Assembly: GCA_020631335.1 (NCBI GenBank)
Contig: JAHDHK010000025.1
Span: forward strand, 1 to 33,493
Reading direction: 5' to 3'
DNA length: 33,493 bases
Origin: Chromatiales bacterium
GTDB taxonomy: Bacteria; Pseudomonadota; Gammaproteobacteria; Granulosicoccales; Granulosicoccaceae
The position numbers and the translations under genes are program-made. Under the pieces are notes generated by a model that made no database searches, was not told the origin of the DNA, and saw nothing but the letters and a program-made list of their open reading frames with translations. Of the stretch, positions 6,283 to 12,952 are shown piece by piece (the first letter of the stretch is position 1; the number at the start of each line of letters is the position of its first letter).

Positions 6283-6666
6283 ATGATCGTTCGAACTCTT
6301 GATGAACTTAAAAAAACCGGCCGCTACGCGGAGAAACCGGGGCACTGGAGCAGTGCTCGATATCTGCTTAGAGATGATAATGTCGGGTTTACTATGACCC
6401 GGACTACCGTTGCCGCCGGCTCAACACTCGACATGCAGTACAAGAACCACATCGAGGCTAATCTGATCATTGCCGGAGAGGCAACGGTTACCGATCTCGA
6501 CACCCAAAGTGAATATCATCTCTCTCCCGGCGCAATGTATACACTGGACAAGCATGATAAACATCGTCTGCATGCAAATTCAGACTTGACCATCGTCTGC
6601 ATCTTCACACCGGCACTCACCGGCACTGAAACCCACGACGAAGACGGCTCTTACCCCGTTTTGTAA
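6283..6666 (+). CDS. ectC: L-ectoine synthase
   Basis: The 127-aa protein aligns by eye along its whole length with EctC, a small cupin that cyclises N-gamma-acetyl-L-2,4-diaminobutyrate to the compatible solute ectoine. The N-terminus MIVRTLDEL, the LDKHDKH block and the FTPALTGTETHDEDGSY ending are all characteristic. The iron-ligand residues reported for the family appear to be kept as Glu58, Tyr86 and His94. EctA and EctB are normally encoded directly upstream, but neither is present here. The gene stands alone, between a divergent membrane protein and a convergent unknown gene. It may work with ectAB elsewhere, or cyclise another substrate. Confidence 0.9.
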   Translation: MIVRTLDELKKTGRYAEKPGHWSSARYLLRDDNVGFTMTRTTVAAGSTLDMQYKNHIEANLIIAGEATVTDLDTQSEYHLSPGAMYTLDKHDKHRLHANSDLTIVCIFTPALTGTETHDEDGSYPVL

Positions 6667-6708: not shown

Positions 6709-8085
6709 TTACCCGTCGGCAGCGGCTAACAGCACCTGCCCGACAATGATTGACATAGCCTGCGAATCGGTAGCACTTTCGTCAATCACTCTCTTGTGTC
6801 GACAATTGAGTGGCAGGTTCGTTATTGCCCGGGCCCGGCGACGTTCTTCCAGCTCAGTCAACCCTGAGTTGCTGTCACAGGTGTGCTTTGAGGTGTTAAA
6901 AACAATCAGGCAATCGACAGTGCCCGCAGTTATCCGCTCATAAACAGCTCGTTCAACTCTGGCGGCTAACCGCCAGAAATAATTATCTGCATCGCCTGCC
7001 AGCTTGAGTTTCGGCAAATCGAATCCGTCAGGAAAATCAACCACCGGGTAACCCGGCACCATCACCACCACACCTTTGCCGGCCAGTGATTCCATTTTTC
7101 TGAACCGAAGAAAATTTCTACCGGCAAGCGTCAGCGCCGAAACCACTTGAGCACCTTTGGCAAACAATGATTGCTCACGGCTATCTGATTGATGATCAGC
7201 TACAGTGTCACCGCGATCACCGGTGCAAAACGAAACCACCCGGGCATCGATCCTATCACCCAGGACTTGCTGCAGCGGCAGCAGATTATTTACCTGCGCA
7301 TCAGTGCGTGAAATTACAACTATCGGGGCGCGCCTGATATAGGCATGTGTGTCAGTGAGACGTTGCTTTTTACCCCCGGCTGTACCTGTTTTCCGGGCGA
7401 ACAAACGAGCCGGGCGATAGGCAATAGAATTAGCATTTTCAAGAATAGCGCGCAGCTCCTGTAGCAACAGATCTACTTCCCAGTTATTAAGCGGCTCCAT
7501 CAGCTTGACGACATACTCGCTTGCTTCTACGCCCAACAGCGCAATACACGTACGCTCGAAAGAAGACAATTCGCAAAGCTGGAATGACTCCCGCGCCTGT
7601 TTCATCAGTTGTTGCCGGGAGCGAATCTGATACTCATAGTGCATCGACGCTGCACATACCTTTGAAATGCTGTTGAGCGCTGTTGAAGTCTGCTTCATGC
7701 CCACATACGCAACAGAGTCAAACAGGTCTGCAGTACTTCTTAACGCCATCGGTTGCCCGGATAGATCGCCGATGGTCACATCCGTAACGAGGTTGAGCTG
7801 CATCAGCGCAGCACAGCCTTCGCAATAACCCAGAAACTTTTCGACTGTGGCTGTATCAGCCGACCGACTGGCAGCAACCCGATAAAAGCCCAGCCCGTTC
7901 AGAAATTTCGAGAATCCGGTCAGCGAAGTTCGCTCGATAAGGAAATCGAGAACACCGCCACTGCCACCGGCACAACAAAGATCCGTCGTTTCGCTTCGAA
8001 CGATAAGGCGGAAACCGGCAGCCTGTGCCTTTTCTAACAAATGGAGTGGAGAGTTTGTCGATAGTGATGCTGTCGTGATTATCAT
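6709..8085 (-). CDS. Unknown protein, about 458 aa, divergent from the DUF6502 gene
   Basis: I do not recognise a family. The product is probably cytoplasmic, with no signal peptide or membrane helix. The N-terminal third has several cysteines, including a CCAGGSGG segment and a YCEGCAAL pair. The middle (about 185-225) is helical. The C-terminal half alternates strands and helices in a Rossmann-like way: APIVVISRTDAQ, then a KGVVVMVPGYPVVDF strand, then a VDCLIVFNTSKHT strand. The ATG at 8085 is preferred: AAGGA (8096-8100) lies 10 nt upstream, whereas a TTG at 8094 would sit against that site. It shares an upstream region with the divergent DUF6502 gene. Confidence 0.75.
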   Translation of the reverse strand: MIITTASLSTNSPLHLLEKAQAAGFRLIVRSETTDLCCAGGSGGVLDFLIERTSLTGFSKFLNGLGFYRVAASRSADTATVEKFLGYCEGCAALMQLNLVTDVTIGDLSGQPMALRSTADLFDSVAYVGMKQTSTALNSISKVCAASMHYEYQIRSRQQLMKQARESFQLCELSSFERTCIALLGVEASEYVVKLMEPLNNWEVDLLLQELRAILENANSIAYRPARLFARKTGTAGGKKQRLTDTHAYIRRAPIVVISRTDAQVNNLLPLQQVLGDRIDARVVSFCTGDRGDTVADHQSDSREQSLFAKGAQVVSALTLAGRNFLRFRKMESLAGKGVVVMVPGYPVVDFPDGFDLPKLKLAGDADNYFWRLAARVERAVYERITAGTVDCLIVFNTSKHTCDSNSGLTELEERRRARAITNLPLNCRHKRVIDESATDSQAMSIIVGQVLLAAADG

Positions 8086-8115
8086 GGGGAGCAATTCCTT
8101 ATGTGTAGGTACCTG

Positions 8116-8136
8116 AGCCCACTTCTTCGGTGGGCT
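8116..8136 (-). promoter_or_regulatory. Leader hairpin upstream of the 458-aa gene
   Basis: AGCCCAC (8116-8122) and GTGGGCT (8130-8136) form a perfect 7-bp stem with a 7-nt loop. It lies about 30 nt before the start codon of the minus-strand gene, upstream of its AAGGA site. No T-run follows on either strand, so a leader structure is more likely than a terminator. Confidence 0.4.
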
Positions 8137-8222
8137 TGAACAGAGAACGCGTGTCCGTCTGCTTCAGGTGGGCATATCTTAGCGTCGACACTACAACTTC
8201 GCTGTGACTGGCCCCACGTTTG

Positions 8223-8260
8223 GGAATTATTTCCGTATTTTATTTTTCGGAATTATTTCC
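8223..8260. promoter_or_regulatory. Paired near-palindromic boxes in the divergent interval
   Basis: GGAATTATTTCC occurs twice, at 8223-8234 and 8249-8260, with starts 26 bp apart. Each copy has the inverted ends GGAA and TTCC. The surrounding DNA is strikingly AT-rich. A possible -10 (TACAAT, 8283-8288) for the plus-strand DUF6502 gene follows the second box. Two identical dyad boxes in a divergent promoter region suggest binding of a dimeric regulator to both; the DUF6502 protein is the obvious candidate. Confidence 0.55.
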
Positions 8261-8316
8261 AATTATTGAAAATTAATTTATGTACAATAGGTGTCAGAGT
8301 TGACTGCAGTTTCAAT

Positions 8317-8376
8317 AAAGCCGCCTGAAGAGGCACCCGTTTTTTTCGGTGCTGCTGATAAACGGCTTTTATTTTT
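8317..8376 (+). terminator. Terminator-like fold in the DUF6502 leader
   Basis: AAAGCCG (8317-8323) pairs with CGGCTTT (8363-8369), and the stem is followed by TATTTTTC. Inside the long loop, GCACC (8333-8337) pairs with GGTGC (8348-8352). Both are in the apparent untranslated leader before the ATG at 8418. A stem followed by a T-rich run within a leader resembles a transcription attenuator. The large branched loop makes it less certain than a compact terminator. Confidence 0.4.
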
Positions 8377-8417
8377 CAGGAGAGCGCAGCCCGAAATTCC
8401 CGGCTGCCAGGCAATAG

Positions 8418-9260
8418 ATGAACAAGCTTCAAGACCAGAACCGGGCGAAAATCGCACTTTCATTGGCAGTTTTCAGAATTTTGAAGCCACTGGCGAAATT
8501 CACTATTCGTCGTGGCATGTCCATAGGTGCAATGATCGAACTGGCCAGACGCGCTTACCTGGAGGCTGCCACAGAACTGCTAAGCGAAGAGCAAACAAAG
8601 GTAACCGCTTCCCGAATTTGTGCGATGACCGGCATGTACCGTAAAGAAATCAGACGACTGGAGGAGCTGCCGAAAATTTCCGACACCGAAACCGATGACA
8701 AGTACAACCGTTCCACACGGGTCATTACCGGCTGGCTTCGAGACGAAGAATTCAAAACAAAATCAGGCAAACCTGCGGCACTGAAGCTCGAAGGCCCCAA
8801 CAGCTTCGAGAGCCTGGTGCGTAAATACAGCGGTGATATGACCCCCAATGCCATGCATCAGGAGCTGGAACGTCTCGGTGCTGTTTCTGTGTCCAGCCGG
8901 GGAATGATCCGGCTTGAAACAGCAGCATATTTAAACTCCAGCGCAACCGACGGCATACACATATTAGGCACCGATACCGCTGAGCTCATCGACACCATCA
9001 CCAATAACATTGTTCAAGCCACCTCTGATGCCAAACGCTTCCAGCGAAAGGTATCCTATACAAATATCCCGCTGGAAAAGTCTGCTGATTTTTATCAATA
9101 TGCAGAAACCGAAAGCCAGAACCTGCTGGAAAAACTTGATCGCTGGCTGAACAAAGCGTCCGCTGCCCGCAAAGATAAAGACAACTGCAAAGTCAGTGTC
9201 GGTGTCTATCACTTTAGCGAAACACAAAATCAAAGCGGCACACGAGCCACAGCAATGTAA
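8418..9260 (+). CDS. DUF6502 family protein, probable transcriptional regulator
   Basis: The 280-aa protein resembles the gammaproteobacterial DUF6502 group. The N-terminus has a basic helical segment with FRILKPLAKFTIRRGMSI, followed by a helix-turn-helix-like block around KVTASRICAMTGMYRKEIRRL (about 62-82). A conserved-looking segment around TRVITGWLRDEEF follows. The C-terminal half is helical (FYQYAETESQNLLEKLDRWL). DNA binding is inferred from the HTH-like block. The gene is divergent from the 458-aa unknown gene and shares paired dyad boxes with it. The start at ATG 8418 has AGG about 7 nt upstream. Confidence 0.75.
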   Translation: MNKLQDQNRAKIALSLAVFRILKPLAKFTIRRGMSIGAMIELARRAYLEAATELLSEEQTKVTASRICAMTGMYRKEIRRLEELPKISDTETDDKYNRSTRVITGWLRDEEFKTKSGKPAALKLEGPNSFESLVRKYSGDMTPNAMHQELERLGAVSVSSRGMIRLETAAYLNSSATDGIHILGTDTAELIDTITNNIVQATSDAKRFQRKVSYTNIPLEKSADFYQYAETESQNLLEKLDRWLNKASAARKDKDNCKVSVGVYHFSETQNQSGTRATAM

Positions 9261-9284
9261 TGCCGGCGCTTTAACACTTGCCGG

Positions 9285-10403
9285 TCAATAGCCGGTCAAT
9301 TCAAGATAACCGTGTCCGATGGCAGTGCCCGCTTCATTAAATAACTCGATAGCGCCCTCCCAGTAGCGCACAGTCAGGTTGAGCTCCTGGTTATCAATCA
9401 ACGGCGAGAATTTTATTATCTCGTTCGAATCAGCCCTTATCAGCCGACCTTCGACCGGATAGCTGGCACCGCTGTCACTCTCCCACCAACGATCAATAAC
9501 TAATTGCGGCGCAGGAATCACCTGACGTTCACCCTTTTGATTTATTTCAACGGCACTACTGAATTCACTCGCGCTGCCGTCTGTCTCACGCAACTGATAA
9601 AACATCACCTCACGGCCATCATCAAACTGCAATGCAAACCAGTCCCAGCCCACTTGATTTTCAGCAAGTGCGCTGCTGCTCCATTCACGATCAAGCCACG
9701 CAGAGCCGGACACAGAATAAGCATCATTAGCCGTACTGATTTCTCCCTCTGCGTGAAGTCTGGTGTAGGCATAGTAATACGACGCGTTGCACGGATCTGC
9801 ACTCTTCCGGCTATAGCCATCAACGCCCTGCAGTACACGGGGTTTACGCGCAGTCAGTGTCAGGTCGATCGCAGCTCCGTTGTCGGCGTCGAGTTGTAAG
9901 TGCCATTGCGGCCTCGAACCTGCAACAGTCTGCGTAAATTTCCAGTCCTCAAGCCATACATCAGCCAGACCATCTTTTAACTCAGCGCCGGCAAGCCCCA
10001 CCGCCGCACGGGCAAATCGCTCATCGGCGTACAATTGATTATCGCCTTGCCTGGTGACTGCAAAGTGCGCCATATAAAACTGCGAAGTCTCCCAGGCTGA
10101 GTTACTGATCGTCTCCTCGTAGGGTTGTGTCGCTATTCTGAAGAATGTTGCATGAAAGCCGAGTTTTACAGCATCCCTGCTACTCAGGTTGCCCGTCACA
10201 TACCACCACTCGTTGCGAAACTCTGGATGCGCCTGATGATCTTGCGGAAATGAAAACTGCCTTGGCGCACAGGCACGCTCATAGCCAGTGGCATCGCCGC
10301 CGAGTTCCGAATGAAGCGAGACCACTGCAGTCGCGTTATCCACGTGACTATCACCACAGGAAACTAAAACGATACTGATCAACGCCCAGATTAATCGCTT
10401 CAT
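9285..10403 (-). CDS. AttH/CrtC-like secreted lipoprotein of an AttEFGH-type ABC system
   Basis: The 372-aa product starts MKRLIWALISIVLVSC. This is a lipoprotein signal with LVSC as lipobox and Cys16 as the lipidation site. The mature part is the lipocalin-like AttH/carotenoid 1,2-hydratase fold: HPEFRNEWWYVTGNL, then SYYYAYTRLHAEGEI, then WLDREWSSSALAENQVGWDWFALQF. Despite the carotenoid hydratase name, proteins in this setting are encoded with ABC transporters (AttH). The ATG at 10403 overlaps the permease stop as ATGA, showing translational coupling. The frame is open further upstream, but that segment lies within the permease gene. Role inferred: outer-membrane or periplasmic partner of the transporter. 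Confidence 0.87.
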   Translation of the reverse strand: MKRLIWALISIVLVSCGDSHVDNATAVVSLHSELGGDATGYERACAPRQFSFPQDHQAHPEFRNEWWYVTGNLSSRDAVKLGFHATFFRIATQPYEETISNSAWETSQFYMAHFAVTRQGDNQLYADERFARAAVGLAGAELKDGLADVWLEDWKFTQTVAGSRPQWHLQLDADNGAAIDLTLTARKPRVLQGVDGYSRKSADPCNASYYYAYTRLHAEGEISTANDAYSVSGSAWLDREWSSSALAENQVGWDWFALQFDDGREVMFYQLRETDGSASEFSSAVEINQKGERQVIPAPQLVIDRWWESDSGASYPVEGRLIRADSNEIIKFSPLIDNQELNLTVRYWEGAIELFNEAGTAIGHGYLELTGY

Positions 10404-12952
10404 CGCTGCCTCAATGCCTGAGTCGGCAGCATCCGCCCGATACGCCATGCCGGATAAATTGCGGCAAGTAAGGCTGCTATAAAAGCCAGCGCAACACTCT
10501 CCCATAGCACGCCGGTGGATACCGAGTACTGCATTGTCCAGCCGAATGAACGCCGGTTGATCACCGCAACCAGAATGCCTGACATAAGAATACCCAGTGG
10601 CAGTGCAAGTAACCCTGCAATCAGGCCCATCCATGCCGTCTGAGACAACAGCACCCTGCGCATCTCATTTGGTGTTAGCCCCAGCGCACGCAATACCGCA
10701 AATTCATGACGCCGCTCAAGTGTCAGTGCCAGCAGGGCACTGAGAATTCCAACAAAGGCGACACCGGCAGTCAACAACCGCAGAATGTGGGTAATAGCAA
10801 ACGTTTGATCGAATATACGCATCGACAACTCACGTATGTCACCATCAGAGCGGACAAGCAGTTGCGGCCAGGGCTTCACCAGCCTGCGAAAACGATCAGC
10901 ATCATCCACTGAACCTGCATTCAGTGACACCCCGATCGAACTCAATCCGCGGTCCTGCCAGTGCAAATGCATAGTGGCCATCGGCATGATAATAAGACCG
11001 CGTCCTGCACCGTAGTCGGTAAATACGCCGGCGATATGAAAGTCTCTTACACCGTTTTCTGTCGTGATACTCAGCTTTTCCCCGGCATTCAAGGCAAGTT
11101 GCCAGGCCAGTGGCTCTGAAATAAATAGACTGTCGGGCGCGGACCACTGCGTCCATTGCTCATCCACACTGGTGTGATGGCCGATGAGCGACAGCCCGCG
11201 ATTCATATCACCAGTGAGTTCCAGCGCCAGTAATCTGGCTGGCGTACCGCCGGCGTCAACATCAAACATCCGGCTGAGTCGTTTACCAGTGACAATCGCA
11301 AGCGAATCGACTGCATCGACAAACTCCTGTGGCAGTGCGTTGTCCAGTGATTCACTGTCACGAACATAAAAGTCCGCCTGTAACGTTTGGTCCAGCCAGT
11401 CGGCTACCGACGCCCTGAAACTGCCAATCATAATGCCGACACCGGCCGTTGCCGACACCGCTACCGCAAGTGCCGTCACCGCCACGGCCACACGACTCAA
11501 ACTGGCCGACAAAGAACGCATCGGGTAATTACCGGTAACCCCGGCGCCGGAAAAAGACATCTTGCCGGTGAGTCGTGCTGCCCAGTAAAGGCTACCGGGT
11601 ATCAACAGGCTATAGCCGATCACAATCATAAAAAGCGCGCAAAACGCCATCAGAAGCGACGCGCTTAACCACAACATTAAAAAACCAAGGACGCCCAGAG
11701 CGCAACCACCGGTTGCCAGCCAGGGTAAAAGCCGACCGGTTTTGGATTCAAGTGCCGAGCGCTGAGTTAAGGTGACCGGTGGGCTGTTCGCCGCCTCCAT
11801 AGCCGGCACCGCTACTGCCACCAGAGCAGCCAATACAGCCATCACCGTGATCTTTAACACATTAAACACAGACACATTGAGCTGCCGCACTTCAAGGGTG
11901 AAGTACAGATCATTGATCGTGCGGGTCACCAGGTTCAACAGCACTCCCCCCAATGCATAACCCGCCAGTAAACCGGCCACCAGACCCAGTAACGTAAAAG
12001 CCAGCACTTCAATGACAATGGCACTCGCGAGCGCCTGTCTATCGACACCCGCGACTCGCAATTGCCCGAACAACATTCGCCGCTGTAACACCGACAGAGT
12101 GACGGTGTTATAGATGAGAAAGGCCCCGACCAGCAATGCCAGCAGACTCATGGCAAGCAGATTAGTATGAAAGGCTCCGGTCATCTGCACCAATGCGTTA
12201 TTACGACGCGACGCATCAGCAATTGACACTTCGCTGAACGTATTTTTTATTTCTTCGAGCTGTGCCGGGTTGTCTGTGATCAAATCGATTCGACTGAGCC
12301 TGCCCGACATGTCCAACAGCCATTGTGCGGTAGCGATATCAGTCATCACCATCGAATCAAAGGCGGCCTGATGTGTTGTATCAATCACGTTGGCCAGCTT
12401 AACGGCGCGTGTTGCTCCACCGGCCTTTACCTTCACCGTATCACCAATCGAAAGCCCGAGCCGGGCCGCCGTGGAATTGCCTGTAAATACAGCACCGAAC
12501 TCAAGCAATGCCAGACTCTCGCGTGTGGCATCACCCGGTTCACCGACATCCTGCAGCGAGGAGAGCTGTGAACGGAACATCGGCTCGGAAAAAATATCGA
12601 TCCCCAGCAGCTGCAATGATTCACTGCCGTCCGGCCCCTGAACGGTCAGCGTCCCTTCCACCACCGGTGCGCTTTGTCTTACGCCGAGACGGGTACGCAA
12701 CTGCGTATAGATACCTTCATCTATTCCCGATACACCACCGACGATCTGATGCGTTGTCCGGCCGGTGATCGAGTCTAGTGACAGCGCAAAAGCCCTTTTT
12801 GCACTCTGATTGGCGATATCGACACTAAACACCACCGCCACACCAAGGGTCAGCCCGACAAACATCAACACTGCCTGCCACAGATGTTGCCGCCAATAGC
12901 GCGCTGAACAACGCAACAACAGCCCGATGTTATTACCAGGCAAGTGCATCAC
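10400..12952 (-). CDS. FtsX-type ABC transporter permease, 850 aa (AttFG-like)
   Basis: This is a double FtsX-type permease. TM1 (about 24-45) precedes a large periplasmic domain. A first FtsX block has helices near 255-275, 300-330 and 355-380, followed by several helices near 405-505. A second periplasmic domain and a second FtsX block with the final three helices (about 725-840) complete it. The permeases of the MacB/LolCE and AttFG groups move lipoproteins, lipids or proteins by mechanotransmission rather than through a classical channel. The gene overlaps the upstream ATPase gene by 20 nt and the downstream lipoprotein gene by 4 nt, so the three form one translational unit. Confidence 0.92.
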   Translation of the reverse strand: MMHLPGNNIGLLLRCSARYWRQHLWQAVLMFVGLTLGVAVVFSVDIANQSAKRAFALSLDSITGRTTHQIVGGVSGIDEGIYTQLRTRLGVRQSAPVVEGTLTVQGPDGSESLQLLGIDIFSEPMFRSQLSSLQDVGEPGDATRESLALLEFGAVFTGNSTAARLGLSIGDTVKVKAGGATRAVKLANVIDTTHQAAFDSMVMTDIATAQWLLDMSGRLSRIDLITDNPAQLEEIKNTFSEVSIADASRRNNALVQMTGAFHTNLLAMSLLALLVGAFLIYNTVTLSVLQRRMLFGQLRVAGVDRQALASAIVIEVLAFTLLGLVAGLLAGYALGGVLLNLVTRTINDLYFTLEVRQLNVSVFNVLKITVMAVLAALVAVAVPAMEAANSPPVTLTQRSALESKTGRLLPWLATGGCALGVLGFLMLWLSASLLMAFCALFMIVIGYSLLIPGSLYWAARLTGKMSFSGAGVTGNYPMRSLSASLSRVAVAVTALAVAVSATAGVGIMIGSFRASVADWLDQTLQADFYVRDSESLDNALPQEFVDAVDSLAIVTGKRLSRMFDVDAGGTPARLLALELTGDMNRGLSLIGHHTSVDEQWTQWSAPDSLFISEPLAWQLALNAGEKLSITTENGVRDFHIAGVFTDYGAGRGLIIMPMATMHLHWQDRGLSSIGVSLNAGSVDDADRFRRLVKPWPQLLVRSDGDIRELSMRIFDQTFAITHILRLLTAGVAFVGILSALLALTLERRHEFAVLRALGLTPNEMRRVLLSQTAWMGLIAGLLALPLGILMSGILVAVINRRSFGWTMQYSVSTGVLWESVALAFIAALLAAIYPAWRIGRMLPTQALRQR

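Follow-up and report, generated by a model that had tools for sequence, protein, structure and literature searches.

We propose that regulators of the DUF6502 (PF20112) family, for which no function is described, repress their own promoters through a conserved palindromic site, and that the DUF6502 copy in the DNA analysed here (the window, a stretch of 33,493 nucleotides from a Chromatiales genome) is a diverged paralogue whose divergent neighbour, called X below, would be a dead relative of an enzyme. Judged from comparisons of sequence, we consider this reading probable, with a good deal of confidence. The boxes upstream of the window's DUF6502 gene resemble worn copies of the site that the family carries in its own promoters, and the family therefore probably switches itself off.

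The two genes diverge from one interval (positions 8095–8417, with no strand assigned), as an earlier note on this DNA had described. X occupies 6709–8094 on the reverse strand and encodes a protein of 461 aa from a TTG codon at 8094, or of 458 aa from an ATG at 8085. The DUF6502 gene (8418–9260, forward strand, 280 aa) is followed by a convergent CrtC-type gene (9285–10634, reverse strand). The same note had reported that GGAATTATTTCC stands twice in the interval; both copies are exact, at 8223–8234 and 8249–8260, 26 bp apart. On the other side of X lies an ectoine synthase gene (6283–6666), with no ectA or ectB seen beside it, and it holds the same place in the related genome G009 (L046:5739–6122).

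DUF6502 proteins and a palindrome near their gene starts

The window's DUF6502 protein matches the PF20112 profile with E 4.5e-55 and 186.8 bits, against a curated cut-off of 27, and we annotate it as a putative DNA-binding autoregulator in which two segments contain an HTH. Its AlphaFold2 model (pLDDT 87.4) places helices at 64–71/75–83 and 130–138/143–152, with wing strands, and gave local matches to HTH and winged-HTH chains, with HTH regions at 34–87 and the Rv2827c chain at 95–168; Foldseek returned no whole-chain structural match at E ≤ 0.001. A search of the PDB by sequence with the DUF6502 profile brought up designed repeat proteins and one ribosomal protein only, which we took as chance matches. 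The records that contain members of the family bear labels of the Gamma-, Beta- and Deltaproteobacteria, of Nitrospirota and of other groups. A literature search by name found no publication on DUF6502 or PF20112, and the operator strings likewise gave none.

Near the gene start, GGGA-N5/6-TCCC (consensus TTTGGGAATATATTCCCAAA) was present in 59 of 70 distant DUF6502 loci, all of them named loci without the label Granulosicoccaceae; the region examined for this count ran beyond the start of the hit. After deduplication there were 105 regions upstream of DUF6502, and 24 of them had a site within one mismatch of GGAATATATTCC, where shuffles predict 0.25; since this motif had been picked from the same data as the count, all 256 half-sites were tested. 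GGGA was the commonest of them upstream of the genus loci (15/29), of the named loci (48/72) and of 23 loci that were later taken from the phylum (14/23), the upstream sets having been deduplicated and short ones dropped. Inside the DUF6502 genes themselves, which served as control, it occurred in 0/29, 1/72 and 0/23, respectively, and GGGA-N5/6-TCCC was absent from nine of the 23 later-drawn loci. Thus, the earlier suggestion that the DUF6502 protein controls its own gene is strongly supported by comparison, with a palindrome in the family's own promoters that recurs across phyla and held in the later draw.

The exact pattern TTGGGAN6TCCCAA occurs 33 times in 31 chosen genomes, or about once per genome, and the reversed pattern four times; this rate is biased upward because 25 of the genomes were named ones chosen by hand, for the most part from among loci already known to have a site. 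Context was fetched for 28 of the 33 sites, five being left out. Twenty of these lie directly upstream of a DUF6502 gene, two before a DUF5666 gene that precedes DUF6502 (L170, L182) and two before other lipoprotein-like genes (L176, with a VWA domain, and L178), while the remaining four are elsewhere, two of them within coding frames. In nine of ten canonical-type Granulosicoccaceae DUF6502 promoters (L019–L028) there are two operators, 61–63 bp apart.

Variants of the site follow the clades of the DUF6502 protein. The paralogue pair L002 and L042, whose DUF6502 genes are orthologous, has the changed palindrome TTTGGTG-N6-CACCAAA, which is what joint evolution of operator and regulator would lead one to expect, and this may be a natural switch of specificity. 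The two loci share TTTGGTGTTTTTTCACCAAA upstream of DUF6502, with its first base differing in L002. When palindromes were searched for clade by clade, C172/L042 and G009 alone gave a clear outcome.

There is some likeness to HetR, the cyanobacterial regulator, a DNA-binding protein that acts on a GGG...CCC palindrome and binds upstream of its own gene. Its requirement is GGGnnnnnCCC (PMC4192349), whereas the spacing at DUF6502 sites is GGG-N7/8-CCC. VIA-align paired 210–226 residues of the DUF6502 model with four HetR entries (Z 6.9–7.2, rmsd 10–11 Å), which is a structural hint; homology we rejected at the profile level (hhalign probability 0.3%).

The divergent protein X

The earlier note had assigned X to no recognised family, and X indeed has no match over cut-off in Pfam, PHROGs or NCBIfam, but it does show profile homology to nucleotidyltransferase-kinase proteins. 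A search of the genome contigs for close kin of X gave no relative, a PDB sequence search with X and its G009 relative gave nothing useful, and a single-sequence model of X folded alone was unusable (pLDDT 32.6). A profile search through 369 genomes of the class uncovered four more relatives, each adjoining another small gene whose start is P-loop-like; plain polysaccharide clusters contain two of the relatives, and the other two lie near genes judged by eye to be of polysaccharide type. The intact relatives have weak matches to PF14907 (NTP_transf_5) and PF02223/dTMP-kinase, mostly under the curated cut-offs, and none was found in the viral contigs searched. Comparing profiles of three degenerate copies of X and four intact ones gave E 3.4e-8 and a probability of 95% over 369 columns, taking in both halves of the protein, and the window's X sequence alone gave E 2.9e-4 and 40% against the intact relatives.

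X resembles the NTP_transf_5 and thymidylate-kinase-like proteins of polysaccharide clusters in that it aligns with them over both halves, and differs from them in having lost the first NTase Asp as well as DR(Y/F)P and Walker A. In the window's copy, SRTDAQVNN stands in place of Walker A and PGYP in place of DRYP, and DLD has Val for its first Asp. It also lies outside a polysaccharide cluster, is without the partner kinase and has new cysteines. The cysteine pairs that the note had pointed out are there (LCC and YCEGC), and YLGYCxxC or a near form is common to all three degenerate copies and absent from five intact relatives. The C-terminal half, which the note had called Rossmann-like, corresponds by homology to a degenerate P-loop kinase-like half. 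By these alignments X is a degenerate relative of the nucleotidyltransferase-kinase proteins found in polysaccharide clusters, and a pseudo-enzyme is the best reading of it; that its cysteines sense something is a guess.

A protein with such losses could simply be a gene in decay, without function, a possibility that we take seriously even as we lean against it. Besides the missing catalytic motifs, the paralogue at C281 is cut short by a stop and the C-terminus of that at C112 is unalignable. Against decay, the window's X stays open over 461 codons at 24–30% amino-acid identity to its relatives, YCxxC persists in all three copies, and identities with C112 at the three codon positions are 0.45, 0.56 and 0.33, with the first and second above the third, which suggests constraint at the level of the protein.

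The window's genome has five DUF6502 genes, and relatives of X adjoin three of them (the window, C112 and C281), always divergently. The DUF6502 proteins of these three loci and one from G009 form one supported clade (100/99). Among the 57 genomes searched, this one included, a match to X was found only in this genome and in G009, so that conservation of the pair is limited to one small clade of DUF6502. In G009 the genes around the locus stand in the same order as in the window, with a polysaccharide cluster, which encodes an intact 524-aa relative of X, separating ectC from the next gene that the two share.

The operator-like boxes of the window

When the window was scanned with a matrix built from 57 distant DUF6502 promoter sites, box 1 (TTTGGGAATTATTTCCGTAT, 8219–8238) and box 2 (TTTCGGAATTATTTCCAATT, 8245–8264), to neither of which a strand is assigned, ranked first (18.3 bits) and second (12.5 bits) of 33,474 positions, and the third-best position scored 7.0 bits. 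The whole 5.58-Mb genome has three exact copies of GGAATTATTTCC, the two in this interval and a third inside a coding frame, and none of 300 dinucleotide shuffles of the interval equalled its best site or best two against TTSGGAN6TCCSAA. Each box is only partly symmetric, with GGAA/TTCC arms, and a sigma-70 promoter scan called no promoter at the boxes. Exact GGGA-N5/6-TCCC is found in none of the five DUF6502 promoters of this genome, and for C284 no good site was found.

The twin boxes stand 172 and 198 bp before the DUF6502 start in the window, 177 and 204 bp at C112, and 171 and 199 bp at C281; in G009 they stand at 170 and 198 bp from a TTG start, and some 15 bp farther from the ATG that corresponds to the other starts. 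Compared with shuffles, the pair at C112 is borderline (P 0.06 for the best site, 0.03 for the best two) and the weak pair at C281 is no better than chance (P 0.80). Across the four clade members the distance to DUF6502 is thus held within 170–204 bp (with the boxes of C281 weak), and that to X is 125, 289 or 763 bp. Since the boxes keep their distance to DUF6502 and not to X, they belong to DUF6502, and the earlier idea that the regulator also controls its neighbour is unsupported. Dual control does fit the position of the boxes between the two start codons and the recurrence of X beside three of five DUF6502 loci, and yet the distance to X ranges over 125–763 bp and G009 has the boxes where no X adjoins DUF6502; we regard it as somewhat doubtful.

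Canonical sites do occur in the same genome, at C76 and C78, yet it shows no DUF6502 gene with one (the assembly is about 93.5% complete). These sites score 26.6–31.8 bits (L176:1500, L147:1499, L145:1500) and lie before two lipoprotein-like genes on C78 and at C76. Such sites are what one might expect if another regulator bound the palindrome and controlled DUF6502-DUF5666 operons, with DUF6502 acting as a co-regulator or something else. We think this improbable: exact sites number roughly one per genome and mostly lie at DUF6502, the variants of the site track DUF6502 clades, and the DUF6502 model carries HTH segments.

Promoter geometry and a proposal for control

The palindrome ends 0–4 nt before the start codon at 33 of 57 sites and does not end within 4 nt at the other 24. 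At 28 of the 57, a TTGACA-like -35 element (at least five of six bases) lies 16–18 bp from the palindrome's central hexamer, compared with 1% in the control. This geometry suggests autorepression of a leaderless gene. A palindrome that abuts start codons could also work as RNA rather than as DNA, and this we hardly credit: in the start-codon layout the palindrome spans the -10 box, and most of it would therefore not be transcribed.

In 56 of the 62 loci scanned, the gene next downstream of DUF6502 is one for a DUF5666 protein; the 62 are the remainder of 80 named loci after ten were dropped for having no unambiguous frame and eight more for having no same-strand gene of at least 120 aa within 200 bp. 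The window's copy departs from the common layout in having neither an exact site nor a DUF5666 gene. At the syntenic locus of G009 a DUF5666 gene follows DUF6502; in the window it is missing, with a gap of about 25 bp to the CrtC-type gene (9260–9285).

Based on these comparisons we can present a proposal for how the family works. DUF6502 proteins would be regulators, probably dimeric, that bind TTTGGGA-N5/6-TCCCAAA in their own promoters, and repression would extend to the DUF5666 protein that the following gene usually encodes. Where the layout is the common one, the palindrome would cover the -10 box and end at the start codon, so we propose that the mRNA is leaderless and that the bound protein blocks polymerase; the signal to which it responds may be the state of the envelope. 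The promoters described above that lack the site, and the sites that lie farther from the start codon, speak against the proposal. In the window's copy, the operator would have turned into a tandem pair of worn boxes some 170–200 bp upstream and the DUF5666 partner would have been lost, with the divergent X probably a catalytically dead relative of nucleotidyltransferase-kinases kept as an open frame. A more sweeping version, which we consider unlikely, would make DUF6502 proteins widespread leaderless autorepressors of envelope lipoprotein genes, with paralogues that switched from GGGA to GGTG or CGGA half-sites and a Granulosicoccaceae clade that recruited the dead nucleotidyltransferase-kinase, with its new cysteine cluster, as a signal-sensing partner.

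If the proposal is right, DUF6502 would become a defined regulator whose DNA site and gene targets are stated and whose paralogues have changed sites, and it would open a first way in to the DUF5666 proteins, which are just as little characterised.
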